From Antitrichia curtipendula (taxonomy: Eukaryota > Streptophyta > Bryopsida > Hypnales > Leucodontaceae), in NCBI GenBank assembly GCA_951230915.1, contig OX579636.1, positions 43,093,912 through 43,157,911 on the forward strand: 64,000 nucleotides of DNA, given 5' to 3'. Positions 17,655-50,672 of the stretch are shown piece after piece (within the stretch, counting starts at the first letter, position 1; every line of letters starts with the position of its first letter). The position numbers were made by a program, and so were the translations under genes. The notes under the pieces are model-generated. The model saw only the letters and a program-made list of their open reading frames with translations, did not search any database and was not told where the DNA came from.

Positions 17655-18612
17655 TAAACCCCTAAAGGACCAAAGTGCTTTTGGAGGCAGCATAGCAATT
17701 TTAGGCAACTCAGTGCGAATGGGATTTTATTTATTTTTCTTTGAAATTTTAACAAAACATTTTCCCTAGGAGTAGCTTTAGCCTTTAATGCCCAATAATT
17801 TTCATAACTCTTGACTACATTATCAAAAAGTTATTGAATGATATGAAGTTTTCATTGCTTGGCGGGCAACCTAGGCAATAAAAATAACTTCTTTAAAATT
17901 CTTTTTTTGAAAAATAAAAATTCGAAATTATTTTTTTGGATTTCTATATACATAGAAAATTTTGAATCATTTCATTTTTATTATTGAGATGAAAGTTATA
18001 AGGAATTTTAGTTGTGCATAGTATACAAGTAGTTATGAAATCTCTTTTCTAAAATAAACTTTGAAGTCCTTCAATTTACTCAATTTTTAATATTCTTGAA
18101 AAAAAATAAAAACATTAGGTTTAGATTTTTTATTACAACATTACAACCATTGGGATTGGCATTTTTCAATTCCATAAAGAAATGGTTAACAATTTAGTAT
18201 TTTGAATCATTATTTACTTCTTTCTACTTACTATTTTTTTCCTATATGTTGTACAATTCCAAATGATCAAAAAAATTTCAAGCATGTAGCCAACTTGCCT
18301 TGAAGAATAAATCTTAAGAGTTACAACCATTCTAGAAATTTTTTCATAGAGATTTGACCTTGTGAAGTGCAGTGGCCTTTTTTTTCGCAGGGACAAAAAA
18401 GGATTTTGCCACTTCAAATGCTAATATCTTGAAATCTACATAGTGGAAATTTCTGAATTTTTTTCTACATCTTCTCAAACCAACATCATAGAAGATCCTA
18501 CAGTTACATTTGTCCAAAAATATTTTTTTTTCTAAAATTTGGTACTTGTATTAGAAATGGCAGTTTTGGAGCATTCTTGGTGAAAACATAGTGCAAAACC
18601 TTTAGAGGCTAA
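17655..18612 (-). mobile_element. CCCCTAAAG/TTAA element of longer type, intact copy (C3)
   Basis: About 958 bp, reverse orientation. It is the uninterrupted counterpart of the copy split by insertions between 28506 and 40698. Read on the minus strand it runs from a variant AGCCTCTAAAGG end to CCTTTAGGGG. It holds the empty TA target (18229-18230) of the 10.7-kb pogo element, and the site where copy D sits in C is also unoccupied. No coding capacity. Confidence 0.75.
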
Positions 18613-19899: not shown

Positions 19900-20379
19900 T
19901 AGTTCTTCCTGAACATAGGCAAGGAATGCCTTGAGGAGGTAAGGATGGTGCATGATCTCAAATTCCGTGAAAATTTTGGCATGTGGGCTAAATCAAAAAG
20001 ACTTAAATGAATGTCTGCCCATGTTGGTCAGAGCATTCAAGAACCAGGTGAGGCTTGTGTGAACAATTCATGCTGGGCAGTAAATTATTTCAAGTCTTCA
20101 CCATAATTGGACTTTTGCATTGGCATTTTCAAGCCGCCTGTCAACTGAAGATTTATCCTCTACAGTCCATCCATTGCAATATGATCACATGAGTTGTCAA
20201 AATTTCAAATGTGCAACTACAACTTTTCTGCAAGAAGTACATAGACTGATGCAGATTTCTGGAATTCAACACACCAGGTTTTCCAAGCCATAACTTAAAT
20301 CTGTAAGTGGTCCTCATTCTCTTGAAGTACTTACATTGCACAATATTCAGCAATTCAGCATCTCAACCTAATGTACTTA

Positions 20380-20537
20380 AGGTAAACCATCTCATTGCGG
20401 TCAGAATTTGAGTAGGTCTCATTGTGGTCAAAATATTAATGGTGGTGTACATTTGAGAGCTCAAATGTACACCACCATTAACATTTTGACCATAATGGGG
20501 CCTACTCAAATTCTGACCGCAATGAGATGGTTTACCT
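20380..20537. mobile_element. Near-perfect palindromic AGGTA-end MITE
   Basis: 158 bp, with ends AGGTAAACCATCTCATTGCG and its complement. TA flanks both sides (20378-20379, 20538-20539). The arms are about 78 bp and almost identical, meeting at GAGAGCTC near 20457. The transcript would be a long hairpin. Confidence 0.85.
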
Positions 20538-20639
20538 TATACTGACTAACCTTGGGTATGGTTGGTGCAGCCACTTTTGAGTGCATAGTGTGTAGTGATA
20601 CTTTGTGTGTCACTTATGCACCATGAAAATTTAAAAAAA

Positions 20640-21413: not shown

Positions 21414-22350
21414 AAGGTGGAGTATTGTCAATCAATGGACATGGAACATGATGTGAACATGGATAGCAAGGATTATTAACTAAAGTCTTGTTTATCAGAT
21501 GACGATTTTGGCATCTTGGAAGCATGGGTTTCTTCCAGAGTGGCTCTCGTCCTAGCTCGTTGCTAGTGTTACCACAATTGTTTGGAAGTTGAGGAAGTAG
21601 ATTATATGTCAACAGTCTTCTAGGTATCAAATTCTCCATGCTTCACCTCCTATTCTGTTGAGTGGAGATAAAAGAACTCGTTGCTTTTCACAAATTGATT
21701 GCAAGTACCAAAATTCAAACAAACAAACAAGTCTTTGGATGTACAATCAAAACTCGATGAATCAAAAATTAAGTGATATGTAGCAAATGCACAAGCGTGT
21801 GAAACGGGTTCAAAAGTAGGAAGAGGTTTGAGAGGGTGAAATTGAACTCCAGCTTTGGAAATCAAGTTCTATATTGATTATTTAGACCACCTAAGTAGAA
21901 CCTAAGTCTGGATTGGAATGTCATACAGAAATGCCATATAAAGTGGACACCATTTATAATCCATAGCAGATTTGGTAGGATTGATGATTTGGTATCACTT
22001 GCATGTGACGCTTCACAAGAGAGACAAACAAGCCATTGCCTTCAAATGCTCATACTTGTAAAATTTTGTTCTAGTTGCTTTGCCATGTGTGTCCACTATA
22101 AGAGAAAGGGGTGTTTTAAGTGTGTTTTTAAGTATAGTCCTAGAGATAAGATATTAAGTAATGACCTTTATGGAGATTTTCAGTAAAAATTTACTAGAAA
22201 CACATGTAATTCTAGTAAATTTTTATTGAAAATCTCCATAAAGGTCATTACTTAATATCTTATCTCTAGGACTATACTTAAAAACACACTTAAAACACCC
22301 CTTTCTCTTGGAGACGTCTCTAGATTATTTTTCTACCATATCCAAGGGGT
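21414..22350 (+). pseudogene. Decayed copy of the methyltransferase last exon and 3' flank
   Basis: From about 21430 the plus strand reads like the minus strand of the methyltransferase gene from its last exon onward (about 57655 down to 57000). Shared pieces include ATGGACATGGAACATGA, TTTATCAGATGACGAT, AGAGTGGCTCT, GTTTGGAAGTTGAGGAAGTA and GATGCTTCACAAGAGAGA-type sequence. The coding part carries an early stop (GATTATTAA where the gene has GATTATTTG) and further frame damage. The copy is interrupted by the palindromic MITE at 22094-22315; similarity resumes beyond it. As flanking DNA is included, this is a DNA-level duplication rather than a processed retrocopy. Confidence 0.8.
22094..22315. 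mobile_element. Palindromic CACTA-end MITE
   Basis: 222 bp of two long inverted arms (about 100 bp each) around a short centre near 22205. It begins CACTATAAGAGAAAGGGG and ends CCCCTTTCTCTTGGAGAC, flanked by GTC on both sides (22091-22093, 22316-22318). The methyltransferase 3' flank near 57040 is the homologous empty site. CACTA-like ends and a 3-bp duplication fit the CACTA/EnSpm superfamily. Confidence 0.8.
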
Positions 22351-26852: not shown

Positions 26853-27179
26853 CTGAAATTACAACTTATTCTGACAAATATTTATTCACAATTAAGCTCA
26901 CCTTGACCAACATTTATTGAACCACATTTTTATCCAAACATAAATAGATGTAAACTTGGTGTCATTGTTTGACAATAGCACCTAATTCATTGTCCAAAGT
27001 ATATGACTTACACACTTTGCAAAAATGGATGGGAGACTGGCGCAATTGGGAGGGTTCAATAGATGGTCAAATTGGGTAATTGATGGCATTGGGACTGATT
27101 GACTCTACTTTAAACGTCACCTATGCGTTACGCTTCCAGACAATGTCTTTGAGAGGTCTCAAAAGTGTGAGTTGCCGTA

Positions 27180-27504
27180 AGGTAGGAGGTTTGAAATGTG
27201 TTTGAGCATTTAGAACTGCACACCTTTAAATGTACACAATTTGTAACATGATATTTTTTCATAGCCTTCATTGATGTACAAACTGTGTACATGTAGGGGG
27301 TGTGCGGTTTTGGAGCCCTTTCCTAGTTCAACTTCAAAATTTCATAACTAATTCTCGAAAGCTCTAAAAAAATGAAACAATTTAATTCAAATGCCAATTT
27401 CACTTTTCTTTCAAGGAAAATTTGCTGAAAAATATTTCAAGAAGTTTCACCTCCCTAAAATTCAATTCCAGACCTTAGGTGGTCGATTTATGGACCTACT
27501 ACCT
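27180..27504. mobile_element. AGGTA-family MITE
   Basis: 325 bp. The left end AGGTAGGAGGTTTGAAA follows TA; the right end is GGACCTACTACCT, followed by TG instead of TA, a likely point change. The interior aligns with 16329-16641 and 48789-49095. No coding capacity. Confidence 0.8.
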
Positions 27505-27921
27505 TGTATGGTACAATTACCTCCATAACAATTACAAGCCACAATTACAGTCTATTTGAATGCAAAAGAATCACAAGGCAATAGAGATCAAAATATATGA
27601 ATTCTTGGGTGACCCTCAAGCAAGTGAACCTCAAAAGGGCAATCAATTTACAAGTGGTGTAAGATAAATTGCCCAAATAAGTTTATAAGCAAAGTTCTTA
27701 TTATTAAATTGGATTGATTTTTTTGATGGATCTTATTTACAAATGATCTTATTCTATGAGCTTATATTTTTTGGATATTCTATAAACTAACTATGAATTT
27801 TCAAGTGTTGGTTATAGGTGTATCCAAAATGAAGGTCCCCTTGATGAAGAAGGCCTACATTTTAGTTGAAAATTTAGATGTGACTATTTTCACTACAGAA
27901 CCAAACTTTGGTTTACTTTCC

Positions 27922-28509
27922 TTAACCCCTAAAGCCCCGAGGGTGTTTTTTGCCAAAAACCACTCAAAACTACTACTTCTGTTGTATTCACTTAAGAGAA
28001 CCAATTTTTTTTTTTTTTTTGGAATTTAACCATAGGATCTTGTACTTGACTTGTCTGAGATCATGTAATAAAAATTTCATCAAATTTGACCGTACGGATT
28101 GGAAGATATTAGCATTCAAAGTTGAACAAAAAGTTTTTTTTCAAGAAGATGCTTAAATTGTCCGAAAAACTAAGATTGTCCATAACTTTCTCATCCCTAG
28201 TCCAAATAGAATGAATCAAAGCTTCACGTATAGGTAAAAACAAAATCATTTAGGAAAAAAATTAAAAGAAATTTATTTTGACTTTTTGTAATTTTTTTTG
28301 GGCTGCCCAAGAATCTCCATTTCTTGCTCATTGTGCCATAACTTTTTCATCCGGCGTCCGATTGAAACCAAAATTATATATCTACAAAGCTCTTGCAAAG
28401 CTACACAACCTCAAAAAATATCAAAAAATTTCACTTCAAATTGAGACAATAGGAACCTACCTAGACCCAAGTTGTCCCCCGAGGGGACAAGCGGGTTTTT
28501 AGGGGTTAA
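27922..28509 (+). mobile_element. CCCCTAAAG/TTAA element, copy B
   Basis: About 580 bp between TTAA sites, with ends CCCCTAAAG and TTTTTAGGGG. It has the shared interior (CACTCAAAACTAC, CATAGGATCTTGTACTTGAC, CATAACTTTCTCATC, TCCCCCGAGGGGACA). It shares its right-hand TTAA with the next element, C, so the two are head to tail. Confidence 0.75.
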
Positions 28510-29530
28510 CCCCTAAAGGTTTTTGACTATGTTTTCACCCAAAACGCTCCAAAATTGCAGTTTCTAATACAAGTACCAAATTTTAGAAAAAAACCTTTTT
28601 TGGACAAAGTAACTATAGGATCTTGTAGTACGCTGGTTTGAAAAGATGTGGGAAAATTTTCAAAAAATTACACCCTATAGATTGCAAGATATCAGAGTTT
28701 GAAGTGACAAATTCCTTTCTTGCCCCTGCAAAAATCCGGGCAGCTGCACTTCACAAGGTTAGATCTTTATGAAAAAAAATCTAATATGGTTGAAACATTT
28801 TGGATTCATCCTTGAAGGCAAGTTGGCTATATACTTGAAAAGTTTTAGATCATTTGGAATTGTACAACATATAGGAAACAAATAGTAAGGTAGGAGGTCC
28901 TGAAATTGAGCGGGCATTTTGAACCGACCCTATAATGGGTGCATGAATAGTGCAAGTAGTTGTTAAAATGGATCATAGTTTTTTGCGTTACAAATAATGA
29001 GCGCAAGTGTATGATTTTAGGACTTCTAGCAGTCCTTTCCAGTTTTGCAAGGGGCCAATCAACAATCATAAAAGCGTTATTCTACTGCAGACATTCAATT
29101 CAAAATTGCAATAAAATAGGAAATACAAATATTAAGTAGAGTGGGACCAGCAATAAATGGGAGGAATGGCAAATCTTTATTTCATTAGCAGGCACTGCAG
29201 AGATTGATTACAAGAACAAATTTCAAGAATGGCATGTTCTGTACAAGACGACTCTTAACAAAAGAAGCGCCATTTTAAACTCAACAGCCATCCATATCAG
29301 GAGCTGTAGTGTACATCTTAATGAAAGCATTAAAAAATTCAGGAACATTAAAGTCGATTTTCATGACATAACCGCTGCTCAGGAGAAGGGTTTCTAGTTT
29401 CACAATGCTTGGCCGAGATAGAACAGTGATTACACAAGCATACCAAGAGAATCAGATTCGTGAATAGCTCATAGAATTTAGTCAATTAATTTCATTGTAA
29501 GGTAGCTAGCTTGTTCAGAAGTCATTGCAA

Positions 29531-32434
29531 ATGCCAATGGACAATAGCAATGAATCTGATGGAAGTGCTGGTGAAGGAAGTCTTTGGCGGAGGAGGCGGA
29601 GCTGGGGCAGCAGCCACAGTGATTACAATGAAGAAGAAGACAGTGATGGACAAAATGATGCCCTCTTCCGGTGGGCGCTAGAGGAAGAGGAGCGCCAATA
29701 TTTTCAATTGCAGAAGGAAGGAATAGAAGATAGCGCAGACGATGGACACGAATTTCCAGAGCTAGAAGACGTCAGCAGAAGAAGAGTTCTAAGGCCAAAA
29801 CCGAAGAACCTCCTAGCGCGGCCAATCGAACAACAACCAGTCTTGGACAGTGGTGCTGACAGTGACGGCAGTAGCGCTGACGAAACTTGTCTGCAGTAGG
29901 CCGATCGTTCCAGAAAAAGCCAGATCAATACAACACATAACGAAGAGCATGCAACAAAGCAGGGAAAGCCCTATGAACGACCTACGAGGCCGGAGAAGAC
30001 TACTGCGCAACGTCTACAGATGGAGGCAGACCCAGGGCCACAGAATCCTGCTTTTCATGGTAATTCCCATGGGAATTCGAACTCTGGCGATCAAACTGCC
30101 CTATGCACATCAGGCGATGCAGGTATTTCATCCAGACCTCCTCAAGTATTGCCCTGTAACGAAGGACTAGTTCGAGTTTCACAGCAGAAAAGAAAATTGA
30201 ATGGGAACTGGAGTAATGCTCAACTTAGAAGTGCTGTAGCAGATGTGGAGGAAGGAATGCCGATGAGAACTGCTGCAAGACTTAACAATATTCCTGCAAG
30301 TAGTTTAAGCGGCCATGTTTATGGGACAACTGCTCAAAGAAGACGGGAAAAAGAAGGAGTTCTGACGAAAAACGAAGAACAGCAGCTTGTAGATTATCTT
30401 ATGAAAATGCAGAACCTCGGTTTTCCTTTGAACATAGGACAGTTACGGGAGAAGGTACAAGTTCTGACTCAAACAAGAGTAACCCCTTTCACTGATGGCA
30501 TGCCTGGAGCCGGATGGGTAAAATGTTTTAAGAGGAGACATCCGGAGTTGACTATCAGGAGAGCTCAAGCTTTGGAACAAAAACGCGCTCGTAATTTATG
30601 TCTTGAAAGTGTAGCTAGTTTTTACAGTAATCTCGAGAAGATGTATGACAGTCATAAATATGAACCACATCGCATATGGAATGTAGACGAAAGCGGAGCT
30701 CAGGCTGGCAGGGATGGAGGCGGGTACGTCATAGCTAAACGCGGATCACGAAATGTGCACATAGTAACGCCGGACCACAGAGAGTGGTTGTCTATTGTGT
30801 CTTGCATTAATGCAAAAGGGGACACACTACTGAATTTTTACATTTTTAAAGGGAAAAGACGGACAAGGAATTTTTTAGTGAAAACAGGGGAGAAAGAGGC
30901 TGCCTTGGCAATGCAGAAGAAAGCCTGGATGACGCACGTTTTATTTCGGAAGTGGCTGCTTCATTTCCTGAAGAACGTTTCAGAAAGGTATGAAATATCC
31001 CCATCTACTAGACATTTACTCATACTAGATGGGCATACTTCTCACGTGACTCTAGAAGTTATCAAATTAGCTATGTCAAAGGGTGTAGACATGTTAACTT
31101 TACCATCTCATACGTCACACGCTCTTCAGCCGTTGGACGTTTCATGTTTCAAGCCGTTTAAATCAGCATTCCGAGCTTACAGGGACAAGTGGATGCTAAA
31201 TCACGTCGGACAGAAGCCTATTAAGGAAAACCTTGCACAATGGGTTTCGCATGGATTTCGAAGAGCTCTAACTGTGTCTAACATCACTAAGGGATTTCAC
31301 TGTACGGGGATATTTCCTTTCAACTCCAATGCCATGCAGTCAAAGATAGGGCCAAGCAAAGCGTACATCCAATCTAAAGGAAAAAGTTTGGCTACGGAAG
31401 AGACAGGCGAAGAAGATGATCGCCCATACGAACTGGAAGCATGGGAAATACAAGAAATATTCGACGAAGTGCCCAGCAACCTACCGAATTGCCAGTAGTA
31501 CTACGTTGAAGTGGACAACGAAGATATGCAGTCTGACAAGGATGGGAAAACAACTGGGAGTTCAAGCAATGAGGATGAGTTGGAGGATCAAACCGAAGTG
31601 GGAGACAACAGCCAGTTCACGAAACTTTTAGAGCTTCCTCACGTGGAGTGGCCAGCAAAATCGTCCAAACGCAAGGCGCTGCAGATCGACTACGAGAAGT
31701 CGATTATGCTGACAACTAAAGATCATCTGTCCACACTTGAAGACGTCGTCGCGAAGCGGGAAGCTGCTGCAGAGGAGCGGCAACAGAAGAAATTAGAAAG
31801 AGAGGCTACAAAGGAGATCAGAGCGCAAGAACGAAAAGAAAAACTTGAAGCCAAGGAAGAGCGGCTGGCCTTATCTAGATCTAAGAAGAAGCACAATGAA
31901 TACTGGAGCGCTAAGAACGTCAGAGCAATGGAAGAGAAACTACATGCTGCGATTCGGGAAAATGCCCCCATTACTGGATATAGAGCATCGTATTGTGGCA
32001 TAATACCATTGGTCTGCAAGGAGAACCAAAAAATTGCCATAGAAAGGAGACGAAAAAAGCAACGAGGAGAAGATGTGAGCAATTTACCAGCTCTACAGCA
32101 GGTGTGGCCGCAGCAGATGAACTTTGCGATGATGCTTTCAATGGGAGCAGGATACTTCGGTGGCATGTCCAATCGTCCTCTGCAATATTCGACAACCTTC
32201 CCTGCTCGTCCTCCACAACCCGCGTCAGCATTCACCACTCCTCCACAGCATGCGGCAACCTTCCCCACTCCTCCACAATATTCAGCAGGCTTCTTCCAAG
32301 TTCCTGCTCAACAACCGTCGACAGGCTTCTTCCAAGCTGCGGCTCCACAGTCGTCAACAGGCTTCTTCCAAGCTCCACCCACAACACCTGCAACATTCAA
32401 TACACCCGGCTTCAACCCACAAGGGAAGATCTAG
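29531..32434 (+). pseudogene. CENP-B/pogo-like DDE transposase with two in-frame TAG codons
   Basis: One continuous frame of 968 codons holds only two stops before its end: TAG at 29897-29899 and at 31496-31498. Part 1 (29531-29899) is acidic. Part 2 has a usable ATG at 30020 and 492 codons up to the second stop. It carries a Psq/CENP-B N-type helix-turn-helix (about residues 63-100 of part 2), a second DNA-binding segment (about 115-190) and a DDE_1 catalytic core. The triad is Asp223 (NVDESG), Asp337 (LDGHTSH) and Asp373 (QPLDV), with 35 residues between the last two, as in pogo enzymes. Part 3 (31499-32434) is a charged coiled coil followed by a Pro/Gln/Phe-rich tail with three STGFFQ repeats. 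Part 2 alone could be a working transposase. Whether the TAGs are decay, read through or spliced out cannot be told here. Confidence 0.85.
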
Positions 32435-33249
32435 TATACTTAACAAAATGACATACTTTTGTGAACTCCTCTGTCAATTCGATGTGGTATAATTGACAGT
32501 ATAATTGTCAGTTTCATCTAATATTCGATTTGCTGAAAATTTATTTTTTGACAGCATTCCCTGTTTTCTTTAAATACTTTTGTATCTTTTGAATCTTACA
32601 GTGACAGTTCCATTAGATCTTCCAAATGACAAAGCTTTTCCTTAAGCCTTTAGGGATGACGTATACTTCTGCAGTGAACATCAGCAGCAAGTGCTGAACC
32701 TGATGAAACTCCTCGTTTTGCTGACCTTAGAGATGCTGTACACATCGTCAATGGTAATCAACATAGGGTTATAGATTGGTCACAGGCCAGCAGTTGCTAA
32801 ATATAAGCCTGCCATCAGCCACCACATATATTATTGATCACAGAATCAAACCAAGCCCCCTTTCTAATCACAACTGAATCAAACAAATAATTAATATTTT
32901 GAAAGATACATAAAGAATTCAATAAATGAAGTACATAAATAAATTTACCTTGTGCATTCTGGGTCTACAAAATACTCCGTCAGGTCCACACACTAGCTCA
33001 CATTCTTAGGAGAGACGAAGTCCAATGCGCCCTTGATACACGACTGCAACAAAATTCCAGAACATGAAGGTCTCAGATTTCGCATTATTGGCCACAACAT
33101 ACAACCAAGGTTTACAGAATCCAACTTGCACATTCAATAACTTCCTGCAGAAGTTGTGAACGTCTTATTACATGAGTCAATGTGAACCACAATGACAGAA
33201 GATTCTTCAGCATCATACCATTTGTAATTACTGAACCCGCAGAATTTGT

Positions 33250-33385
33250 AGCTTGAGCTCCTGACGTGGATCAACCTTCAGCTCCTGACGCCGTTTGACC
33301 TTCAGCTCCTAACGCTGCTCCAACTGATAACGACCGTCGACGTGCTGGACATGACAATGCGGAAGATGTAGGTGTCCGACTACGA
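33250..33385. repeat. Short direct repeats beside the C2 fragment
   Basis: CTTCAGCTCCTGACG recurs three times near 33270-33320 with small changes. The segment from about 33322 to 33385 (CGTCGACGTGCTGGACATGA and onward) is repeated with divergence at about 33905-33985. The two copies flank the C2 fragment and may mark how it was acquired or duplicated. Confidence 0.5.
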
Positions 33386-33416
33386 TTGTCACTGCAGAAA
33401 ACAGTCATCTCCACGT

Positions 33417-33680
33417 TTACACATCGGCAATGAAAACAAATCTTTGAAACTCCCAAATCGGTAGTATACCAGTCGGCATTCGAATCTCCACCGTCATCCA
33501 ATTTCCTAGATTGGCATAGATCGAGCCACATGACTCCAAAACAACTAGCAACAAAGCAGCAGAAGCAAAAGTGGGAGATTCACAAACCACACAATAAGCA
33601 TTCGATGATCCTTGGCCGTCCTTGGGCACAAGATCCCTAGCCGACGTCACCTCCACCAGAAGCTTCCGACCAATTGCCAT
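33417..33680 (-). pseudogene. Captured first exon of a C2-domain protein (MCTP/QUIRKY-like)
   Basis: From the ATG at 33680 the minus strand encodes MAIGRKLLVEVTSARDLVPK and then DGQGSSNAYCV. This is the opening of a plant C2 domain as in the first C2 of multiple-C2 transmembrane (MCTP/QUIRKY-like) proteins. A donor-like GTTTGTG follows the CV codons near 33583, and the C2 sequence stops there. Only about 32 codons of the domain are present, of roughly 1000 in the full family. It lies inside the pogo element, so it is read as captured host DNA. The frame continuing to 33417 no longer resembles C2. Confidence 0.6.
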
Positions 33681-34217
33681 AGCTAAGCACCTGCACTACC
33701 ACCACCGACCTACAAACAAGCAGCACAATTCAATCAACACGTTCTGTTGTACCCCCAGCCCCCCACCGCCACTCACCCCGAATCTCTACTGCTTTCCGTC
33801 AATTGCAGTCAAAGCCTGCCCTTTGCCGCAAGAGTAGCCATAATCGAAGTTGGTCGACTCCAGTTGCAGCGAAGCTCAAACAAGAGCACTGAAAACAACG
33901 CGGCGACGCACCAACTACAAACGAGCGTCGATGTGCCTGACAAGACAATGCGGAAGTTCTCGCTGTCCGACGACGACAGTCAGTGCGAGTCGAGGCAGAT
34001 GCTGATTGACCTGGTGCCCGTGGCAATTGTGATTCAAATTCTGGGAGCATGCAATCTGGCGCGCTTCGCCTTCGTTACCCACAGGCTCTATCTGGCTCTG
34101 TCCTCGACTGCAGTCTCTGTTAACATTGGAAATGTGCACTTCCAGAGAACGATGCTTACTAGACAAAGAAACGGAAGGAACAAATGGTTAAAGAACCCTA
34201 CGGTAAAAGTGGCAACC

Positions 34218-34710
34218 TCAAGCAAAAACAGAAGGGGAACAAAGGAGATCGACAACGTATCCGAACGAGAAGGCTGGTGACACATATCCCTCCGTCAATC
34301 CTTCAACGCACACACCCATCTTGGGGTCTTCCTTGATCTGTTCAAGCAATTCGTGGTTAGAACCTTCATATGGCCGTGCCACGGCATCTGAAAATTCAGG
34401 AGACATGCAACAGACGGTATAAGAACAAACCATGAGACTCTGTTGAGAAGGCTGCGGCAGATCGGTAATTTCTTCGTTGCATATCTAACACAACTTCCAT
34501 GTCCCTTTTGTGGATTGAAGGGGTAAGCTTACAGTACGTTGCCAAAAAACTCTGCTATCGCTATGCGCCACGACTGCTCCGTCATTGATGGAGGGAGTAT
34601 TATTCCAGTACTCTTTGAAGCTCTTGGGAATGGTATCAGGAGTGAAGTAATCATTTCGCACGTCGTCTGCAGAGCAGAATCGAACCTGCAAACAAGAGCC
34701 CACTCACGGC
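34218..34710 (-). pseudogene. Unidentified exon-like coding fragments
   Basis: Two stretches on the minus strand look like coding exons. The first is 34530-34700, with FTPDTIPKSFKEYWNN; the second is 34290-34430, with EGSNHELLEQIKEDPKMG. They lie between the H+-ATPase and C2 fragments inside the pogo element. I do not recognise a family. Residue composition is protein-like rather than random, so they may come from a third captured gene. Confidence 0.35.
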
Positions 34711-34979
34711 AAATCACTTAAGCTCGTTAAGAAACTGGGACTGCTACTAATATTACAGGGTTTTTGACAACTCTACTGGAGACGAAGATAATTGATTGGC
34801 ATCCGAAATATGTAAACTCTTCAACAGGCTCATCATCATCATCAAATTATGCTGATTAATACGCTACTCAATTTCATTGTCATGTGTCATCCAAAGGTGC
34901 AACTTAGAACTGTTTGACGATCAATGATCAGCGAAACACATCCACACTGAAGTAATGCAGTTTGTAGCTACAAAAAGTT

Positions 34980-37620
34980 CTGGAAGTAACCGACATTGTT
35001 CGTAGAGTCCACCAAATGTGCTGCTTTCCCGAAAAAGGTGTGCACACCTGTGCCAATAACAACGGCCTCAATCTCTCCTTGTTTGCAAGTGGATCCTGAA
35101 AATACTCCGTCTCAAGATTTCTTCGTGACAGGAAGAGATTCTCCCGTCAAAGCTGACTACAGGAGGGAATGAAATAAGTTAATTAGAACCAACACAATTC
35201 ATGCACAAAACCCCACTTCCGTAGTCCCAAATCATCTGTTGCTAGAATGTTAAAATGACAGCAGCAGGAATACGAGGTACGGAACAAGATTGCATATCCA
35301 AACTGTTTAGTGATCTTATATACGTACAGGACTCCGTGCCCAATAGCCAAGAGACAATCGATATAACCAAAGGATCAATTGAAACGATCGATACCTGATC
35401 AATCTTCAACGGATCACCTGCGAGAAGACGAGCATCGGCAGGGACGATATCACCGAGCTTGATACAGATGATGTCTCCAAGAACCAAAATCTCGGCATCT
35501 CCTTCAGACCAAGCACCATCTCGTAATACCTGCAGAGTGATGATTCAAACATTTTTTAATCTTTAATGACAATAAAACTTGCAAATAACGGTAGATCATA
35601 CATGAGATGCAACCAGACCAGGCTAAACAGTACTTGAAATACAACTCAAAACTGGGTCGTGCAGCATAGGCTTTCAACACAAGGCTTGGGTGAGGCTTTT
35701 TCTGCATCGTCTCCACCATCTGCATCGTCTCCATCGTCTGCACCTCAACATGACGTGGGTCATGCTGAAAAACCTCGTTGATGGGAACGTGCTCCTGCGT
35801 TCATGAACCCCAAGTTAGTACTGTAACAAATGAGAACATGAGATAGCCATTTCACTCGCAAAAGTGATCGCTACAGTGATCACGACTTTTAATGGCAATT
35901 CGCTTTCAAACATAGGCAGACTTCCCGCACAGAGAATACAAAATGAGCTCTCTGACGCTCCGCCTAATACAACCATGCCACCTTGGAATCTATGGAGACA
36001 CAATTCTATTGGCTTGATTTGGTATGAACACATAATCAAACTTAAAGCTTGGTTGGAAAAAGAGAGTATTTCTGTCTGACGTTAAATAAGACTGAAACGT
36101 CCGGGTCCCACAGGCAAAGCACTACGCATTCATCGCTTAAATGGATAGAACAGAAGTGGAATATCGTTTGAGTTTGTTTTTTTCAAAACAATGAATGAGT
36201 TTTCATTCTATTACAGAGAATGGCAGGGCGGGGCAAACGACAGGACTAGTCTAAGTGAGGATGATGGGGCACAGAACATCGGCTTTAAGAAATCGATCAC
36301 CTACCACATAATTTTTCTTCTTCTTTGGAGTAAATGAAAAGAAGATTTCATTGCAAAAGGACAGTACAACAAAGCCCAAGACAGTAGTATTTTACCCCAC
36401 AGGCCAAGCAGACTCAAGACCAGACAGACCGCAGATTGGAAGCAACAACTTCAAAACTCAGGCGAAAGATATTTTCACCTAACTGAAAAGATTACCACAT
36501 AATTTCATACTACCAACTCTTTACGAGCTTTCTACTCACCGTTTTAAGAGGCAACACTTTAAATTACATTTCAAGTATCTACGAAAACTTACTGATACTG
36601 GCATATTTGTCCTGGGTAAAGCAAAAGCCACCTCATACCAGCAAATCGATATCATGAGCAGGAGGAACAATTACTAAAAGATTAAATTAACATTGATCTC
36701 CTGTCTCAGCCTTGTTACTGTTTCCATTGAACCCTTTAAGATGAATTAGAAATTTATTTCAGTGTTGTGTGGAACAACCATGAGAACGCAACAGTCAGAG
36801 CATTAGTAGTAGGTTGCATAAAAAGAGAATATTCTCAGAAAGAACCAATACCAGAGGATTTACAAAATTAGATATCGTAATTTTAAAAGTAAAAAGTAAA
36901 AACAAAAGTTTCGGATGGTGAGGTGAATCACAAACAGGCGGATCATTGATTAGAATGACGCACGGCACGTACAAGAGTTGTACCTGACACGCACTATTCA
37001 CGCGTCCCATGGTCATTAAACTCCGCTCACTTGAGCGATCCACGATAATCAGTTGCTTAACACTTAAAACAATATATTTGCAACAAAAATGCGACTACTT
37101 ACAACCTGCCATGTATATCTGAAATTCGTCACAACATGAAATCTCTAAAGAAGCGGAAAGCTCTCTGATAAACCAGTGAACTCTCTAATGAAGATTATCG
37201 AAAGAATCGACAGCCAAATGTACGTGCTACGCGTACTCTCAAGGTGTGCTAATAAGTCAAGTGCCTCTGAGCGACTCCAGGCGAACCAAAAGTAAGTAAG
37301 AAAACACTCTGATTCCCGGAAACAAAAAGTAATTGATGAAGAGCAAACCAAGTCCCTCATCGCGTGCTCACATTCCGAACGAATCACTCTAAGCATTTCG
37401 AAAACTACAGCAATGCAGGCGTGAAATAAAGACAAGAAAAAGCAACTCCAGCATTCCTACAGCACACATTACGTCCTCCCAAAGCTCACTCGCATACAAT
37501 AAAAGCTTCGATTGTCGTTTCAGCTCACCAGGTCAATGGTCTCGTTGTTGAGCGCCTCTAGCACGTCCATGTCTACGCCCGCTTTATCGAAGTCCCCGTC
37601 GCCGCCACCGATGCAGATCG
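34980..37620 (-). pseudogene. Captured N-terminal exons of a P-type plasma-membrane H+-ATPase
   Basis: Four exon pieces lie in the correct order on the minus strand. About 37620-37529 encodes DMDVLEALNNETIDL and ends at a GTGAGC donor. From 35794 down, after an AG acceptor, comes EHVPINEVFQ. 35529-35395 is an exactly open 45-codon exon ([19 protein letters not shown]) with both splice sites. 35156-34980 carries SALTGESLPVTK, including the TGES motif of the actuator domain, and then [17 protein letters not shown]. The last piece has a TGA where the family has Gly, and its donor is lost (CAG|AA). The family is about 950 residues; only part of the first 250 is present and the exon for the first two helices is missing. 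It is clearly non-functional as an ATPase and lies inside the pogo element. Confidence 0.85.
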
Positions 37621-37830
37621 ACGATGATTGGCTATCTCATCGTCTATCTCATCGTCTATCTCATCGTCTATCTAATCGTCTGCATCGTCTCCATCATGAC
37701 TTTTAATGGCAATTCACTTTCAAACATTGGCAGACTTCCCGCACAGAGAATACAAAATGAGCTCTGACACTCCGCCTAATACAGCCGTACCTCCTTCGAA
37801 TCTTTGGAGACACAATTCTATTGGCTTGAT
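35875..37830. repeat. About 130-bp direct duplication inside the pogo element
   Basis: The segment at about 35885-36015 recurs at about 37700-37830 with a few changes (GACTTTTAATGGCAATTC, GCAGACTTCCCGCACAGAGA, GACACAATTCTATTGGCTTG). Each copy stands just right of a TCGTCT-rich tract next to an H+-ATPase exon. This suggests one duplication that included both. Confidence 0.75.
37632..37695. repeat. 12-bp minisatellite
   Basis: CTATCTCATCGT repeats about four times, followed by decayed CTAATCGTCTGCATCGTCTC copies. It lies next to the first H+-ATPase exon fragment. Confidence 0.8.
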
Positions 37831-38328
37831 GCCTCTGAAATCTCATTCACGCCAAACTCCCTTCGCCAATCCTGTCCAATGATAAAATGACTAGCATTCA
37901 AATATCAGTATTCGCATGACATCGATTTCAAGGTTGTGACCATCCCAGGTCTCCAAAATTGATTTTTTAGCCTTCATGACTCAAAAAACTATCTTGACAT
38001 CATATGCCTGCATGCTTGATGCTTATTGAAATGAAATGTGTAAATAATAGTGTAAGATGGCGGTGACCAGCACATCTAAGTTTGAATGCCTACAAGAGTT
38101 TTGATCGCACACAGAAACGATTAGTGGGAGAAAAACGTTGGGTCTTCCACTGATCGTATCAGTTGGCAGATCGATTGGCCGTATCAATTCGCACTTGTAC
38201 ATCAATACCTTCAGAAAATATAAAAGAACAGTGGCATTGATATCGCAGCTGCTTGTCCACGTTGCTTCTGTCTTTCTGCATAAAGACAGCATTCGTTACA
38301 CGAAGTAAGGCGACGCCTGGCAACAACG

Positions 38329-39255
38329 GTGACAAAGCATACAAAAACACCGAAAAAGCATACCGAAATCGCCATTCTCAAAAACTATTTTGAACGCCTT
38401 ACTGTTTTGCGCCGACGAATTCACAGCCCAGAGAACATGAAACTGCCACAAGCCACACAAAACAACGAAGAAGCATACGAAAATCAAAATCGAAAGAGAA
38501 AAGAAGACTCTAATGTAAACCTACTTCAACAGCCTAAAATTATAAAATACACAGAAGCAAAGAGAAAGCGTGTGCAAGTGAAGGGATCGCAGCGCTTACC
38601 TACAGCAGCGACATGAAAGGCAACTGCAGTGGCAGGGATGGGGAGCCTTCCGTGAAACCCTTGCGACCACCACCAAGCAAGAGCGACACTAGCGAAATCC
38701 GAAGACGTACAGCAGGAAGCGGGCAATGGAGCCACCTCAGAAGCACCGGCATGAACAAGGGAACGATGCCGCCTTGCGATGTAAAAACACTCCGCCGGCG
38801 CGGCCAAAGGCAGGTGAAAGAAGCAGCGACTCCAAGCAGGTGGCTGCGAATGACGAAAATGGCCAACGATGCGTTGTCATGTACGGCACAAATTGGAAGC
38901 CAGAGAAGCTAAAATTCAATGCTCTGCACATTGCTTTGATGAAAACAGGGATTGCAGAAGCGGCGCGCCTTGGATTCCATCACAGCGACAGCAACGCGCC
39001 GGGGAGGAGAAATCAGCTGGCTGCAACGGCTATTTCTTAACTGCCTTTCTGACGTCAGAAATTTCGAACTACAGTATGAGCGATTTTAGGACTACTAGGG
39101 TGGGTATCCAAGAACCTCATCGGCCGCGAATTCATTACCTGACACATTGTTCTTCAATTCCCCTCACGCGATTCATGCAGCTCTGTACTTGTGCAGGGCT
39201 ACCTACCTATTTCTCCAGCATGCTCCATTTTGGACACTACTTGCACGCTTTTTGA
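38329..39255 (+). other. Right part of the pogo element, weak open frames
   Basis: Open frames of 95 to 128 codons overlap here. The frame 38726-39040 ends with MYGTNWKPEKLKFNALHIAL and has coding-like composition. No family is recognised. It may be part of another captured gene or an untranslated part of the transposon. Confidence 0.3.
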
Positions 39256-39882
39256 AACTTTCAAGAGGAATTTGAAACCACTTTCATCTTCTCTTGCACT
39301 GCTCTGCTTTATTTATAGCCGTTTGCCAATTCCTTACAGCTCCCCTCTATGACCACAAATAGCGCCCTAGGCACTGTTCACTTTGAAAATTTGTATCTAA
39401 TTCACTTTAACTCGGAAAATTACACTTTAAATTGCAATTCATTTCTTCTCCACTTTTCTCTCTACGAAAAAAAAATTTAATTCCCATGGCCAGCTGTCCC
39501 TCCTCCAGCTCTGTTTTTCTCCTTAGATGCTCCATTTCTGAGCCTCCTACCTTAAGTATAAAGAAGTAGAGAATGAATCAAAATACTAAATTATTAACCA
39601 TTTATTTATGGAACTGAAAAATGCCTATCCAATGGTTGACATGTTTTAATAAACAATCTAAACCTAATGTGTTTTGTTTTTTTCAAAAATATTAAAAATT
39701 GAGTAAAATGAAGGATTTCAAAGTTTATTTTAGAATAGAGATTTCATAACTACTTGTGAACTACATTCAACTAAACTCCTTATAACTTTCATCTCATTAA
39801 TCAACATAGAATGATTAAATTTTTTTATAGAAATCCAATAAACCAATTTCAAATTTTTATGTTACAAAAAAGTGATTTTTAA

Positions 39883-40463
39883 CCCCTAAAGCCTTGAGGT
39901 GTTTTTTTTGTCAAAAACCACTCAAAACTACCACTTATGCTGCATTCGCTTAAAGAAACCAATTTTTTTTATAAATTTTGGAATTTAACTATAGGATCTT
40001 GTACTTAACTTGTCTAAAATCATGTAATAAGAATTTCATCAAATTTGACCATATGGATTGGAAGATCTTAGCATTCAAAGTTGGACAAAAAGTTTTTTCT
40101 TAAGAAGATGCTTTAATTGCCCAAAAAACTAAGATTGTCCACAACTTTCTCATCCCGAGTCCAAATAGAATGAATCAAAGTTTCACGTATATATAAAAAC
40201 ATAATATTTTAGAAAAAGTGTTCAGAAAAAATTATTTTGACATTTTGTAATTTTTGGGGGGCTGCCCGTCCATCTCCATTTTTTGCTTATTGTGCCATAA
40301 CTTTTTCATCCAGCATTTGATTGAAACGAAAATTATATATCCACAAAACTCTCGCAAAACTAAACAACCTCAAAAATCTCAAAAAAAGTCACTTGAAATT
40401 GAGACAATAGGAACCTATCCAGACCCAAATTGTCCCCTGAGGAGACAAACAATCATTTAGGGG
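39883..40463 (+). mobile_element. CCCCTAAAG/TTAA element, copy D, nested in C
   Basis: About 581 bp. The left end is CCCCTAAAG after TTAA (39879-39882); the right end is TTTAGGGG before TTTAA. It is close to copy B. Copy C3 shows the same place without the insertion. Confidence 0.75.
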
Positions 40464-40954
40464 TTTAAAAAGTTTTTTTAGATGCATGAGTTGCCCACTA
40501 AGCAATGAAAACTACATATCATTCAATAATATTTTGTCCATGTACTCAAAAGTTATGAAAATTATTGGGCCTTGTAGCTACTCCTCGGAAAAATGTTGTG
40601 TTAAAATTTCAAAGGAAAAAAATAAAAATACCATTTGTAGTGAGCTGCCCAAAATTGTTATGTTGCCAAAAAACGAACTTTAGTCCTTTAGGGGTTAAGG
40701 CATCTCCATAGCTCGCACGCTTAATAGGGGTGCCAAGCCAGGTTTAGATTGTTGGTTTGAAGAACGTGGCCTCACCACTCCTCCTCTGCCCCACTGCAGA
40801 TGCGCCAAAGATATTATGTATGAGGTAGTTTTGTTGCTTGAAAATTAAGTACAAGAGATTTAACTTTCAATTCCTTGAGAACTACCTCACATAGCTTTAA
40901 GAGCATTTTCTTCAAATTTTGATTTAATGAGTAAAAAAAAAATATCTTTTTATA

Positions 40955-41855: not shown

Positions 41856-42087
41856 CGCTACAAGAGAAAGGGGTGTTTTAAGTATAGTCCTAGAAATAAC
41901 ATTTTAAGTAATGACCTTTTTAGGAGATCTTCAGTAAGAATTTACAAGATATTTGTGTCTTTCTAGTAAAATTTTACTAGAAAGATACAAATATCTTGTA
42001 AATTCTTACTGAAGATCTCCTAAAAAGGTCATTACTTAAAATGTTATTTCTAGGACTATACTTAAAACACCCCTTTCTCTTGTAGTG
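41856..42087. mobile_element. Palindromic CACTA-end MITE, near perfect
   Basis: 232 bp, flanked by CAT on both sides (41853-41855, 42088-42090). The ends are CGCTACAAGAGAAAGGGG and CCCCTTTCTCTTGTAGTG. The arms meet without a spacer at TAAAATTTTA near 41972 and differ at only a few places, so it is almost a pure inverted repeat. It is the sister of 22094-22315; the outer 25 bp and ACTTAAAACACCCC-type blocks are shared. Confidence 0.85.
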
Positions 42088-42168
42088 CATGGTCCCCTTC
42101 ATGAACAAATATGCATAGTGCCCAGATGGTTACCAAATCCATTGTCAACACAATTGTTTGAGGAAATA

Positions 42169-43320
42169 AGGTAGGTGGCTCAAATAGCAACCCTCTTCTT
42201 CAAACAATCCTATAGGGAGCTCTGAAATGGAGACTAAATGGGTCTAAAATGGATTGCCAACTTCTTTTAGTGTACAATGTTGCATAATTAAGGGTTGTCA
42301 ATGGATGGAATAAGAGCTAGGGAGGGTCCATTTCAAAGCCACGGTGTGTCCACTTAATTTTTCTAAATAGGAATTGATTGCCCAATTGCCTTATTACAAG
42401 TGCTAAAAGAATGTGGGGTCCATTTAAGTTTAGTAAGGGTCGCATTTAGGAACCTTGTGTATTACTTTTTGAATGCCGTAGTGTTTGTTTTGGGTCAAGC
42501 CATATCTTTTTTTAGACTGCAAACTGGGGGGGGGGCACTTAGAGTGTCCATTATAAACCACGTGCGATCAAAACTTTGGACCCCCTATTTATTTTTTGAA
42601 TTTTAAATAAAACAAAATTAAAAATATATAAATAGATTTTTCTACTTTGAAAGTTTATATTTTGAATTATTGATATTTTTATTTGTTAATGATAATTAGT
42701 TACAAATTTTTGAAGTAAAAAGATACACTATAGAACTGAAAAAACTTTCACACCCCTATATTATATAAGAAAAAATTGTCTAAAAAATGAACAAAAAATT
42801 CCTAAAAATAACTCTCTATTGAAAGCTCATTTTGAGTTGAATATTGATTCAATGGTCATCTAAATGTGTTCTCTATAATTTTTTGAGTTGAAAAACATGC
42901 CATTTTAGTTCATTTCAAACCTCTTTTAGAAATCATTTCATATTTTATTTGAGTTTGAAATTTTGGCAATAGAAACCTATAGTCATTATTAAACAATGCT
43001 CAAAATTTTAGGCTGAAATTATAGTTTATTAGAAACCACTTGTTCACACGTGGTTTGTTGTAGTAGAACTAAGTGCACCCCCCGAGACTGCAAATGAGCT
43101 CATTTCACAAGGCCTATGATCACAAATAGGTGTCTATAGTAGAATTCTTTGGAAAATAATAAGTAATTCATAGATGCTCCAAAAAATATGAAACCACTTG
43201 TGTTAGATTTTGCATCAATTTTTCTTAGAATGAAAATTAAGAGAAAATATTTTTGGGCATTTTAAACCCATCAAAAAGGCCCAATAACCTTAAAAGTGTC
43301 GCTTTTTGAGCCACCTACCT
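42169..43320. mobile_element. 1.15-kb AGGTA-end element
   Basis: The ends AGGTAGGTGGCTCAAATAG and CTTTTTGAGCCACCTACCT are inverted copies, flanked by TA. The interior is AT-rich with no long frame. It includes GATCACAAATAGGTGTC, a phrase also found in the element at 19000-19899. Non-autonomous, larger subfamily. Confidence 0.8.
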
Positions 43321-44021
43321 TAACAAGTATAAAGTGCCTCATATAGTGGACAAGGCTCAACTTGCTAGGAGAAGAATGCTCCTTGATTGCTCGCCACTTA
43401 CTCCCACAAGGTCATTCACTATAGCCAACGCTTACTAAACGATCAAAATCAATAAACAGAGCTTTTTAGTGAGATACAAATTGTGCCTAATTTGGAGTTT
43501 TTTAGTGGGGTAGAGGGAGTACTTCATTATGCCAGCAAAGAATTTTCTAGATGGTTATTGAAATAATGACATTGATATTGATTTAATTCATTGAAAATTT
43601 AATTTCTTGTTGTGCCAAGATGCGGTATCATATTGCCCCTACTTGGAGTAGCCTGTTGCGCCTAATGGAGCTCATGTAGGGGGCCAACTAGAATCAATAC
43701 ATTACACAATGAGTTGAAATCAGTTGGTGCGCCGTGTGGAAGACTCAACATTTGGTTGTGTGTTCTTTAAATCTTGGCATGGTTGGCCTCTTTTTTTCCA
43801 TTGGCGTGTCTGCTGTGGGATAACATTTTAACCCGGGCATGTCCACTCCCCATGTCTTGGCCCTTGGGCCGTGGGGATGCTCTTACCCAATTTCATATTT
43901 CAGAAAGTTCTAAGCTTTAACTAATCACATCATGACAATCAAGTTTTACGTATTCTTATCAGAACCTTGTGATACCAATCATGAGGTGTACATTTCAAAG
44001 ATATGTAGGATTGGGAGAGTA

Positions 44022-44430
44022 AAGTAGTATGCTCTAAAAGCAACCATTTAAGGGCTAGTCCACCTTTTTCTTAGATTTCCATGGATAAAAGTATTTTTAG
44101 ATCATTTTTTAGAGAAAGAAAATTAGATGTGGAATCTAACACAATTTTTTACTTATTTTCCAAGCATTTTTGAATAACTTATAAATTTCCAAAAAATTTG
44201 GAGCATAGGCACTTATTTGTGCTCATAGGGCTCCCAAAATCAATCCACTTGCAACTTGTAAAAAGATGTGGGGAAATCAAAGACAATGATTAGCTTGTAG
44301 TAGAAAAACAATTTTTTCTTGATTCATTCAATTGCTAAAGTGGTCCATTTAAAGATTCCCTCATCTCCATTCTCCAACTAATAAATGGAGTGGCTTTGAA
44401 GGAGAGGGCTGCTTTTAGAGCATACTACCT
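44022..44430. mobile_element. AGGTA-end MITE variant
   Basis: 409 bp. The ends AAGTAGTATGCTCTAAAAGC and GCTTTTAGAGCATACTACCT are an inverted repeat of about 20 bp, flanked by TA (44020-44021 and 44431-44432). The middle carries reverse-oriented family sequence (TGTGCTCATAGGGCTC). No coding capacity. Confidence 0.8.
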
Positions 44431-45390
44431 TATAGAATGGGCTATGTATTGTATATAAGTTTAACTTTTTTTCGAAGGTGCCATGCCATTGATGGATATG
44501 TATTGTAGGTCTACGGTGCACTAGGATTCTAATATTGTAGGAATGGTACTAAATAAACAACTTACTAGCATTGAGGAGCAAGAACAACTTGTCGGCATTG
44601 AGGAGTAATTTATTCCAAAGTGGTGTTCCTTTGGGTATATAAAAAAAAAAGCACTTCATAACATTTAGTGTCCTTCATGCCCACTACCTTTCCTTCATGC
44701 ACTTTGATCATCACATTGAGACTCAACTTGTCAAAGTAGCTACTAATGAAGTATTGTTGGATGTGGAATATTTTATACCATCTATTGCAAAGCAAAAGCA
44801 ATGATAGTGCATGCTACTAAACGTTACGTTAGTTTTAATATCCAATCATATTTTCTTGGACCAATAAAGCAATTGCAAAACAAAAAATTCACTAACCAAG
44901 GGTTTTAAAGAGTGGTATAATTAACCTTGAAACAACAAAGACTATGACCAAAACAGTCAACCAAATATGATCCAAATTGTAGAGGAGTTTGTTAGTATTT
45001 TGTTTTTACAATTTTCCTCAAAGTCATTCACAATAAATTTTAAATATTTGGCATACTTGTTGGGTTAAGTGAGAACAAACCAAAAATCACTCTTTTGTGT
45101 CACTAGAAGGAGAGGTGTTGACATTAGAAATACAATATCATAAACCTCCTTCTACTTATAACAAACATAAATTCCACATTTAGGAATTGGGTTTTACATA
45201 ATTGGATTTTACACTATACTTTCATTATACAATCAAAGGAACAATGGAAATTGATGACAAGAACATCAAACCTTCTCCAAATAATATATTCCTTAACACT
45301 TTTACTGACATTGAAGAATTTTGTATACTTTCTCACAAACCAGAAACAATAAACCATATCAAAGAAGATTTAGAATGTCTAATTCAATCC

Positions 45391-45946
45391 CTAAAGAATC
45401 GAGGCCATTTTTTTTGTCAAGACTACCACTTCTGTTGCGTTCACCCTAGAAAACCAAAAAAATAAATATTTTTTGGAACCTAACTAAAGGATCTTGTACT
45501 TAACTTTTTTCAGATCATTTAGTAAAAAATTCATCAAATTTGACCTTACAGATTGGAAGATATTAGCATTCAAAGTTGGACAAAAAGTTTTTTTCAAGAA
45601 GATGCTTAGGTTGCTCAAAAAAAAATTGTCCATAACTTTCTTATCCCTAGTCCAAATAGAATGAATCATAGCTTCACATGTAGACAAAAACATAATATTT
45701 TAGGGGAAAAAATAATAATAATAATAATTTTGACTTTTGGGGGGTTGCCTGCCAACCTAGGATTTTGGCTTATTGTGCCACAACTTTTGCTCCCAGGCAT
45801 CGATTGAAATAAAAATTATATATTCATAAAGCTCTCATAGAATCGCAAGTCCTCAAAAGGTTTTAAAAACATTCACTACAAATTTGAGACAATAGGAACT
45901 GACCTAGATCCAAATTATCCCTTGAGGAGATAAACAATCCTTTAGA
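45391..45946 (+). mobile_element. CCCCTAAAG/TTAA element, decayed copy E
   Basis: The interior follows copies B and D (CCACTTCTGTTGCGTTCACC, AGGATCTTGTACTTAACTT, CATAACTTTCTTATCCC, GAGACAATAGGAAC). The ends are eroded: TCCCTAAAG on the left, TCCTTTAGAAG on the right, and neither TTAA is preserved. A short AAT microsatellite sits at 45711-45729. Confidence 0.65.
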
Positions 45947-46530
45947 AGTTTGTGGTTCACCTTTAAAGTGCTCCAACGTCCAATTTTGAGACAATAAACA
46001 TATTTATACTCTTGTTTCTTTCTAATTGCTTCTTGGATGAAAGTCATCCTAATTTGTGAAGGTATTTTACGAAGTTGTTGTTCTATCTAATGGTTGGATG
46101 TGGTGTTACAAAAGTACATATTATATTTTTATAGAGTTACAAATGTGGAAGCATGGCAAGTGGTTGACCAAATCCAAATTGTATTGATTGTAGTTCAAAA
46201 CCGGATTTGCAAAAACGAGGTCATAGATTTAATGAACACAAAAATTTCAAAAAATCATTGTATAAAGAAAACCTCATTTCAAATCCATTCCAACAAATTG
46301 CACTCAAAATATGATAATATTTTGCTTGTAATTGATTTTAGTAGGAATTTTGAAGTTTTCCTTTCAAAATTTATATAAAAATATTGGTGATAGCATTGGT
46401 GAATCTACCCATACCTATGGAATCTAAAACTCAAAATCTTCAGCTTTTAATTTGTATATGAGTTCCAAAACATTCTTCAAAATAGTACTTTATAATGATT
46501 TTTCTCAAATCGTGAATTCTGGAGAAAACT

Positions 46531-48788: not shown

Positions 48789-49095
48789 AGGTAACATGCT
48801 CGAAAATCATCCACCTCATCAAATGTACATTGTGTGTACATGTTTCTTTTTTGTAGCCTTCAGCAATGTACAAATAATGTTCATTTTAGGAGGTGGGTGA
48901 TTTTAGAGCCTTATCCCATTTCAACTTCAAAATTTTATAACTAATTTCACAAAGCTCTATAAAATATGAAACAACTTAGGTTAGATGCCAATTCCACTTG
49001 TTTCAAAGAAAATTTACTGAAAATCATTTCAAGAATCTTCGCCTCCCAAAATCCAGTTTCAGCTCTTAGGTGAGCGATTTCTAGACCTGTTACCT
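48789..49095. mobile_element. AGGTA-family MITE
   Basis: 307 bp with ends AGGTAACATGCTCGAAAAT and GACCTGTTACCT, flanked by TA. The interior is clearly that of the family (TTATAACTAATTTCACAAAG, GATGCCAATTCCAC, AAAATTTACTGAAAATC). Confidence 0.8.
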
Positions 49096-50096
49096 TAGAG
49101 GCAATTAGGGACTTCTCGCGGACTTAAAAAATTTCTTGGAAGTTTTGCGAACTTCCAAGAAAATTTCATCCTACCAAAAGGAGCCAACTCTACTATAGAA
49201 CTCCCTTCTGCTTTAATGGAACCCTAATTATTTATTGTCAAGTCTCTCCTTGTTTCAAATCTCACTAATTTGCTTTTAGTTATTTACTACCTGTTCTTTT
49301 GTGAGGGGTTCAATATTGAGCCCCACAAACTAGGACCATGCCTAACGTACTACTAATGAACATTTCAAGATAGGGACACTTTTAGAACACAATGCCATTC
49401 CAAATTCACAAATTTATAATGAATAACGCATGAGTCCAATCCAAGTGGGTACAACTTCCATTTATATGCGAAGTAAAATTATTGAGAATTGTGAGAATTG
49501 TTTCTAGGTATGCAACCCCTCTGTACAAACCTTGTAATGTGCATTGGTTCCAAAACAATTATGGGATATACCCTAACTCTAACTCTGCCCCCTTTATTTA
49601 GTTGTACTTTGAAATTTTGGTGACATTAGTGTGAAGTATTTAAATCAAAAAGTACATAAAATACTAAGGACTTCTATTATTATTGACACAATCTTTCTTT
49701 TGGTTAACAATCTGAAAATTCTAGTCATCATTTTTTTTAATCTTAAAAATCTAGCCAATAAACACCTAAATAAAATTATTAGATTCGTTTTAGAGGATTT
49801 GCAGTAACAAAGTCTTCATGTGAGAAAATTGGACCTTTATTTGATAAACAAGACACACCTATAGGCCAAAGCTTCTTGTAGTGTAGCTTCTTGTTATTAC
49901 TAAAACATAACTAGACTACATTAATTTATCCTATTAGTGACAATGCAAAATTAGTATCACCATTGAATTTTATTTTTGAGAATATTGGTAAAACAAAATC
50001 ATATGTAACTTGTACTAATGAAATAATTCTACAAATTATGTGACTTTGATAAATTATTGTCACATCTCACAAATAAGACAATCAATATACCTCCTA

Positions 50097-50645: not shown

Positions 50646-50672
50646 TTGGATCCGGAGAAGCCCTTCCTCTCC

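Follow-up and report, generated by a model that had tools for sequence, protein, structure and literature searches.

A probable pogo-type transposon with captured host gene pieces in the moss Antitrichia curtipendula

Introduction

Transposons of the pogo superfamily are described as 1.2–5.2 kb long, and in land plants they have been reported as Lemi of 23 eudicots (PMC7386202) and from Selaginella and dicots (PMC7325037), according to the available portions of these papers; the same limit applies to the other papers cited here, except where a main text is named. The present study concerns a stretch of 64,000 bases of nuclear DNA (37 % G+C) from the moss Antitrichia curtipendula (assembly GCA_951230915.1, contig OX579636.1, positions 43,093,912 to 43,157,911 of the forward strand), here called the window, and within it an element of 10,665 bases (28888–39552) with TA and inverted ends at both borders. 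An earlier interpretation made from the letters alone (the sequence-only reading) had proposed that this is a pogo-type transposon with both its transposase and captured host exons, and this proposal is followed up here.

Accounts of gene capture in plants have dealt mostly with MULEs, Helitrons and small Pack elements that are non-autonomous. The definition of Pack-TYPE elements requires them to be non-autonomous and to have no transposase match (PMC8903248). Among the metazoan Pack-TIRs 115 of 370 are TcMariner, and a model of fork stalling and template switching has been proposed (PMC8277862). Elements that retain a transposase have also been described, since in grapevine a MULE, the CACTA element Cactavine-5, Pifvine-3 and Hatvine-6 each have a transposase plus transduplicated gene fragments (PMC2528002). 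The sequence-only reading had considered its element unusual on the grounds that Pack elements usually lack a transposase, but that argument leaves these published MULE, CACTA, PIF and hAT cases out of account. A search of literature titles and abstracts, with most subscription journals outside it, found no pogo element with captured genes. In the main text of a 2026 review of plant gene capture the words mariner and pogo are absent (PMC13317346), and 'captured' and 'gene fragment' are likewise absent from the main text of the paper on PpTc1 and PpTc2 of the moss Physcomitrium (PMC4054914). Gene capture is known for other transposon types, and a pogo case extends a known phenomenon.

The element has several features of the pogo superfamily, including a TA duplication, short terminal inverted repeats (TIRs), which in the superfamily are of ≤40 bp, HTH_Tnp_Tc5 and DDE_1 domains, DD35D catalytic spacing and a protein of close to the largest size described (977 aa), but at 10.7 kb it differs in length (PMC7386202; PMC7325037). 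With the grapevine elements it has in common a transposase and captured exons and introns in one element and, with the CACTA case, a captured piece downstream of the transposase open reading frame (ORF) in the opposite orientation, whereas those come from a flowering plant, belong to MULE, CACTA, PIF and hAT, and in part have a capture in common among several copies, and this is one copy of a pogo element in a moss (PMC2528002). In KAONASHI MULEs a captured host domain also lies in reverse to the transposase gene, but there the domain is conserved, coding and present in numerous copies, in contrast to the broken pieces in the one copy seen here (PMC13317346; PMC2528002). As in Pack-TYPE elements, including the Pack-Mariner of rice, captured gene fragments lie between TIRs with a target duplication, although Pack-Mariner was sought with Stowaway-type (mariner) ends; because a transposase match is present, the element is not classed as Pack-TYPE (PMC8903248). 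PpTc1 and PpTc2 belong to the same IS630-Tc1-mariner group and likewise come from a moss, but they are of Tc1 type with DD34E and not pogo (PMC4054914).

Element ends and insertion site

The sequence TAAGGTAGGAGG is read inward from the TA at both ends of the element, starting at 28886 on the plus strand and at 39554 on the minus strand. The left TIR, including the TA, is at 28886–28911 (+; element proper from 28888) and the right TIR at 39529–39554 (−; element proper until 39552), and this outer pair of 26 nt is 85 % complementary. The end 12-mer occurs at 13 sites in the window with ≤2 mismatches, as against 2.7 expected, and a count of 13 was reached in 0 of 100 shuffles; the word is an end common to a family and no random occurrence. 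A BLAST comparison (E ≤0.01) of the element with the rest of the window gave a match only through 29 bases of the left end.

Counterparts of the insertion site without the element are present in the same window. These are the two arms of a foldback repeat at 16968–18612 (no strand assigned), which are diverged from each other (73 % alike across 729 columns). Each arm aligns to the left flank from 28506 until 28889 or 28895 and to the right flank from 39553 until 39882 or 39891, and when the flanks of the element are joined with a single TA, the alignment to both arms is gapless at the join. The window thus has the site once with the element and twice, in related form, without it, with duplication of the TA, and, because the joined flanks match both arms, the outer ends came as a single insertion and not as two miniature inverted-repeat transposable elements (MITEs). 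The boundaries given in the sequence-only reading are thereby upheld.

A second pair of inverted repeats, which that reading had not recorded, lies just inside the outer pair. The left inner (subterminal) repeat at 28950–28976 (+) pairs with the right one at 39220–39246 (−) with an alignment score of 32. None of 500 shuffled pairs (mean 20, highest 31) reached this score, nor did any of 94 controls from the interior (highest 24), and in the window there are just two sites of this repeat at ≤8 mismatches of 27. The pair ties the left and right ends of the element together specifically, and may provide a second binding site for the transposase. Double repeats at each end resemble the inverted repeat/direct repeat (IR/DR) ends of some Tc1-type elements.

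An improbable alternative is composite transposition, in which a host segment lay between a pogo copy and a neighbouring member of its family and was carried along when the outermost ends moved jointly, as in the neighbouring-element model (PMC8903248). Family ends are dense here, with the 13 end-like sites in 64 kb, and 39220–39241 is 77 % like the right terminus (39527–39548) in the same orientation and may represent an inner end that has worn. Moreover, the left end is nearest to both MITE left ends compared, but the right end scores 18.0 and 15.5 against these two left ends and 7.5–15.0 against five MITE-type right ends, being at least as like the former; the right end thus has no clear right type, and typing by MITE ends, a comparison that omitted the ends of 42167–43322 and 44020–44432, works for the left only. 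Against composite transposition, the end 12-mer (≤2 mismatches) is found between 28886 and 39554 only at the two outer ends, the inner repeats specifically link left and right, and a normal host segment would hardly combine fragments from two or three unrelated genes in 4 kb. The prospect that two separate MITEs merely flank a host segment, which the sequence-only reading had named as its own refutation, is unlikely in view of the uninterrupted empty site and the pairing of the inner repeats.

Ends of TAAGGTAG, identical or similar, also border MITE-like copies, which were seen with both ends at 16327–16643, 27178–27506, 42167–43322 and 44020–44432, and with one end at 6019–6327, 48794–49097 and approximately 1375–1633. 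Several short copies, such as 16327–16643 and 27178–27506, have the end 12-mer of the large element at their borders. The copies closest to the large element have in common with it just ~30–40 end bases.

Transposase

To the right of the left end, the plus strand has a transposase frame from stop to stop at 29510–32434, consisting of 974 codons, including two TAG codons (29897–29899 and 31496–31498), followed by the final stop; the first ATG is at 29531. Matches to Pfam above cut-off were obtained for the DNA-binding domain HTH_Tnp_Tc5 (30371–30556, 33.6 bits) and for DDE_1 (30779–31288, 88.2 bits), both on the plus strand, and the match to HTH_psq (18.7 bits) is below its cut-off of 20.4. The catalytic aspartate codons at 30686, 31028 and 31136 have DD35D spacing, the first of them preceding the DDE_1 match and falling within a DDE_3 match. 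In an alignment of 121 sequences (the query and the best 120 of 380 relatives), the three aspartates are conserved in 117, 116 and 120, respectively. The frame therefore has the CENP-B/Tc5-type helix-turn-helix together with DDE_1, and the DDxD family spacing, by which pogo transposases are recognised, and the pogo-type transposase of the sequence-only reading is borne out. Passer and Fot-like elements are described with DD35D, and Fot-like ones with HTH_psq, which is weak here (PMC7386202).

The 380 relatives came from a protein search with the central part of the frame; the best of them, P0001, has 919 residues and is encoded on a 4,403-base contig. Among the 120 relatives listed, two are assigned to an organism, in both cases Taxus chinensis. 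When the stops are read as X, the frame and the full-length P0001 are 50 % identical across 858 columns; the ancestor thus coded its own transposase, and the copy here probably no longer does. The description of the element as self-coding consequently holds for the ancestor, not for this copy, which is probably no longer self-mobile. If the frame had drifted for as long as the duplication within the cargo described below (142 positions compared, 10 of them different), 4.7 stops would be expected as against 2 observed (P 0.16). The structure prediction for the transposase is poor (mean predicted local distance difference test score, pLDDT, 55.2; predicted template modelling score, pTM, 0.36). 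Searches with a 12-sequence alignment of the transposase in genome-contig and viral-contig collections without plants gave 35 and 22 pattern matches, with no relatives among them.

Captured gene pieces

From the transposase stop to the right inner repeat there are 6.8 kb. On the minus strand, between 33.6 and 37.6 kb, a single gene for a plasma-membrane H+-ATPase is represented by four pieces, in order, with pieces of other genes downstream of them. The first H+-ATPase exon is probably that at 37529–37604 (GT after it), which is placed by order and has no significant match of its own. It is followed by the start of an exon at 35762–35794 (AG before it), which is weak at 4.9 bits and broken off after 11 codons, by an exon of 45 codons at 35395–35529 with AG and GT at its edges, and by an exon at 34974–35156 with AG before it and an in-frame TGA. 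Joined, these peptides give 182.7 bits against Arabidopsis ATPase 2 (5ksd), 175 of which are from 35395–35529 and 34974–35156, and 107.2 bits against the Pfam family E1-E2_ATPase. The two upstream pieces are weak by themselves and are placed by their order, and the captured gene is without the part that would match residues ~15 to 121 of the chain. Because introns are kept and splice signals stand at the exon edges, capture was from DNA and not by way of mRNA. The H+-ATPase exons with introns on the opposite strand, as claimed from the sequence alone, are thus supported.

A piece of a second gene, likewise new in this analysis, is a CRAL-TRIO (SEC14-like) exon of ~25 residues at 34611–34685 (−), the open frame of which continues to a GT at 34532. 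It matches P0121 (96 % over 25 % of the query) and P0122 (84 % over 26 %), the latter a CRAL-TRIO protein with PF00650, at E 2.4e-5 and 3.3e-4; these are the sole two matches and both cover just ~25 residues of the first joined exon. The joined CRAL-TRIO peptide gave E 0.11 or worse in a PDB search. A putative second exon at 34257–34387, joined to the first for these searches, is outside both matches, reads as out of phase with the first and is left unassigned. A possible third gene is represented by a 32-codon start of a C2-domain protein at 33585–33680 (−), which may be MCTP-like. Its match to the C2 family is weak, at 20.8 bits for the isolated peptide (cut-off 22) and 13.5 bits in a six-frame scan, with only E 0.14 and 0.6 in a PDB search, so the C2 fragment of the sequence-only reading is retained as a candidate. 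This piece is flanked by a 79-base duplication (33317–33395 and 33908–33986, 78 %), which is possibly from a further captured gene. The frame 33687–34277 has no Pfam match.

Recognised host exon therefore comes to ~0.6 kb, spread across 33.6–37.6 kb, and the 'about 7 kb of cargo' of the sequence-only reading is close to the distance from the transposase stop to the right inner repeat, but overstates the host DNA that is proven. It is very improbable that the right part of the element is ordinary transposon sequence with chance matches to genes. Although 32.4–33.6 and 37.8–39.2 kb have no Pfam match and may be of such a nature, the score of the joined ATPase exons, their order and their splice signals refute this for 35.0–35.5 kb, and the host exons contradict it at 34.6–35.5 kb.

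The cargo also has a duplicated stretch of 140 bases, with one copy at 35879–36018 (+) and another, 91 % identical, at 37693–37830 (+), adjoining short ATCGTC-type repeats. Both features are compatible with template switching, although they are no proof of it.

Origin of the cargo

The interpretation favoured here, to which a probability of roughly 0.62 is assigned, is that of a pogo element with an ancestral transposase and with intron-containing pieces of host genes between its ends. A cut-and-paste transposon of the pogo superfamily, TA-inserting and with DD35D, inserted at a TA of a repeat of the foldback type. The outer and, putatively, the inner repeat pairs at the ends would be bound by its transposase, which would excise the element and join it at a TA. 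Pieces of at least two, and probably three, unrelated host genes (for a plasma-membrane H+-ATPase, a CRAL-TRIO protein and a C2 protein) would have been taken up, as intron-containing DNA copies, into the interval from the transposase gene to the right end, most likely through template switching in repair, and the cargo would have been on board before the last jump. With two stops in the transposase frame and one in the captured ATPase, the copy is now decaying.

Several observations weigh against this interpretation, in addition to the lack of a clear type for the right end. Only one copy is known, so the cargo may have arrived later, in a pogo copy that was already in place. The 10,665 bases exceed the size range of pogo elements (PMC7386202), and the region to the right of the transposase is the excess. 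The control for the inner repeat is narrow, the best shuffle scoring 31 against 32, and the repeat was spotted before it was tested. Of the gene matches, that to C2 is below the Pfam cut-off and that to CRAL-TRIO is of ~25 residues, and most of the 6.8 kb is without identification, including the two parts without a Pfam match.

Since one copy is known, the main rival is that a smaller pogo element inserted first and that a gene-capturing element of Helitron or Pack-MULE type, or an insertion during repair, added the gene pieces later; this is considered unlikely, although it is the strongest of the alternatives. The recognised gene pieces are all in one direction, and a uniform orientation of captured pieces is frequent in Helitrons. 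The contig of P0001, with 4,403 bases, has scant room for such cargo, but it is perhaps incomplete. Scans of the cargo for a second element do not support later insertion. Inverted 12-mers with a duplication of 8–10 bases were not found in 32435–39300 (ten shuffles gave 0 or 1), in a scan for elements of ≥800 bases in which degraded ends could be missed and CACTA- or PIF-like duplications of 3 bases, which also limits its weight for the favoured interpretation, were outside the range. Helitrons have TC...CTRR ends with a 3′ hairpin, and their autonomous copies a RepHel domain. Two candidate Helitron 3′ ends were found, or four at a laxer threshold, all of them weak and ill placed, although worn ends of non-autonomous Helitron copies could escape such a scan. 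Likewise, a six-frame Pfam search of 32435–39298 (E up to 1) gave only E1-E2_ATPase, C2 and one chance-level match, with no RepHel and no second transposase or other transposon domain.

If the favoured interpretation is true, a pogo element that kept its transposase has taken up pieces of several genes, and TA-inserting elements can capture genes too, in a moss. The model of template-switch repair could then be tested here, as a single window has the element, its short relatives, whose ends are similar, and empty versions of its insertion site. A wider proposal, that mosses have a pogo lineage beyond the plant groups listed in the two pogo surveys (PMC7386202; PMC7325037), in which elements that code for a transposase accumulate fragments of several host genes, introns included, and transport them in units of 10 kb, the genes being antisense to the transposase, is tentative and rather doubtful.

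Surrounding sequence

Elsewhere in the window, an ORF at 50640–51113 (+) has an end that resembles plant arginyl-tRNA synthetase, but this was unsupported by Pfam or PDB search. In Rfam, nothing in the window reached a gathering score. Palindromes with arms 95–99 % complementary and 0–2 bases between them are at 41858–42085, 22100–22309 and 20378–20539, the first two being related (68–69 %). A gene of the DUF229 (sulfatase-like) family, split over at least two frames, is at 1972–4574 (−). The best of 62 matches to its frame at 1972–3180 (−; 401 residues) is from Physcomitrium patens, with 75 % identity, and is the single one assigned to a named plant; six other matches are plant-like, at 55–89 %, and most of the other named ones are from fungi, for example Coemansia. 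A dispersed repeat family has copies at 12441–12697, 27963–28507, 39922–40465, 45417–45950 and 63269–63642, and the two copies that flank the element, in the same orientation, are 86 % identical.

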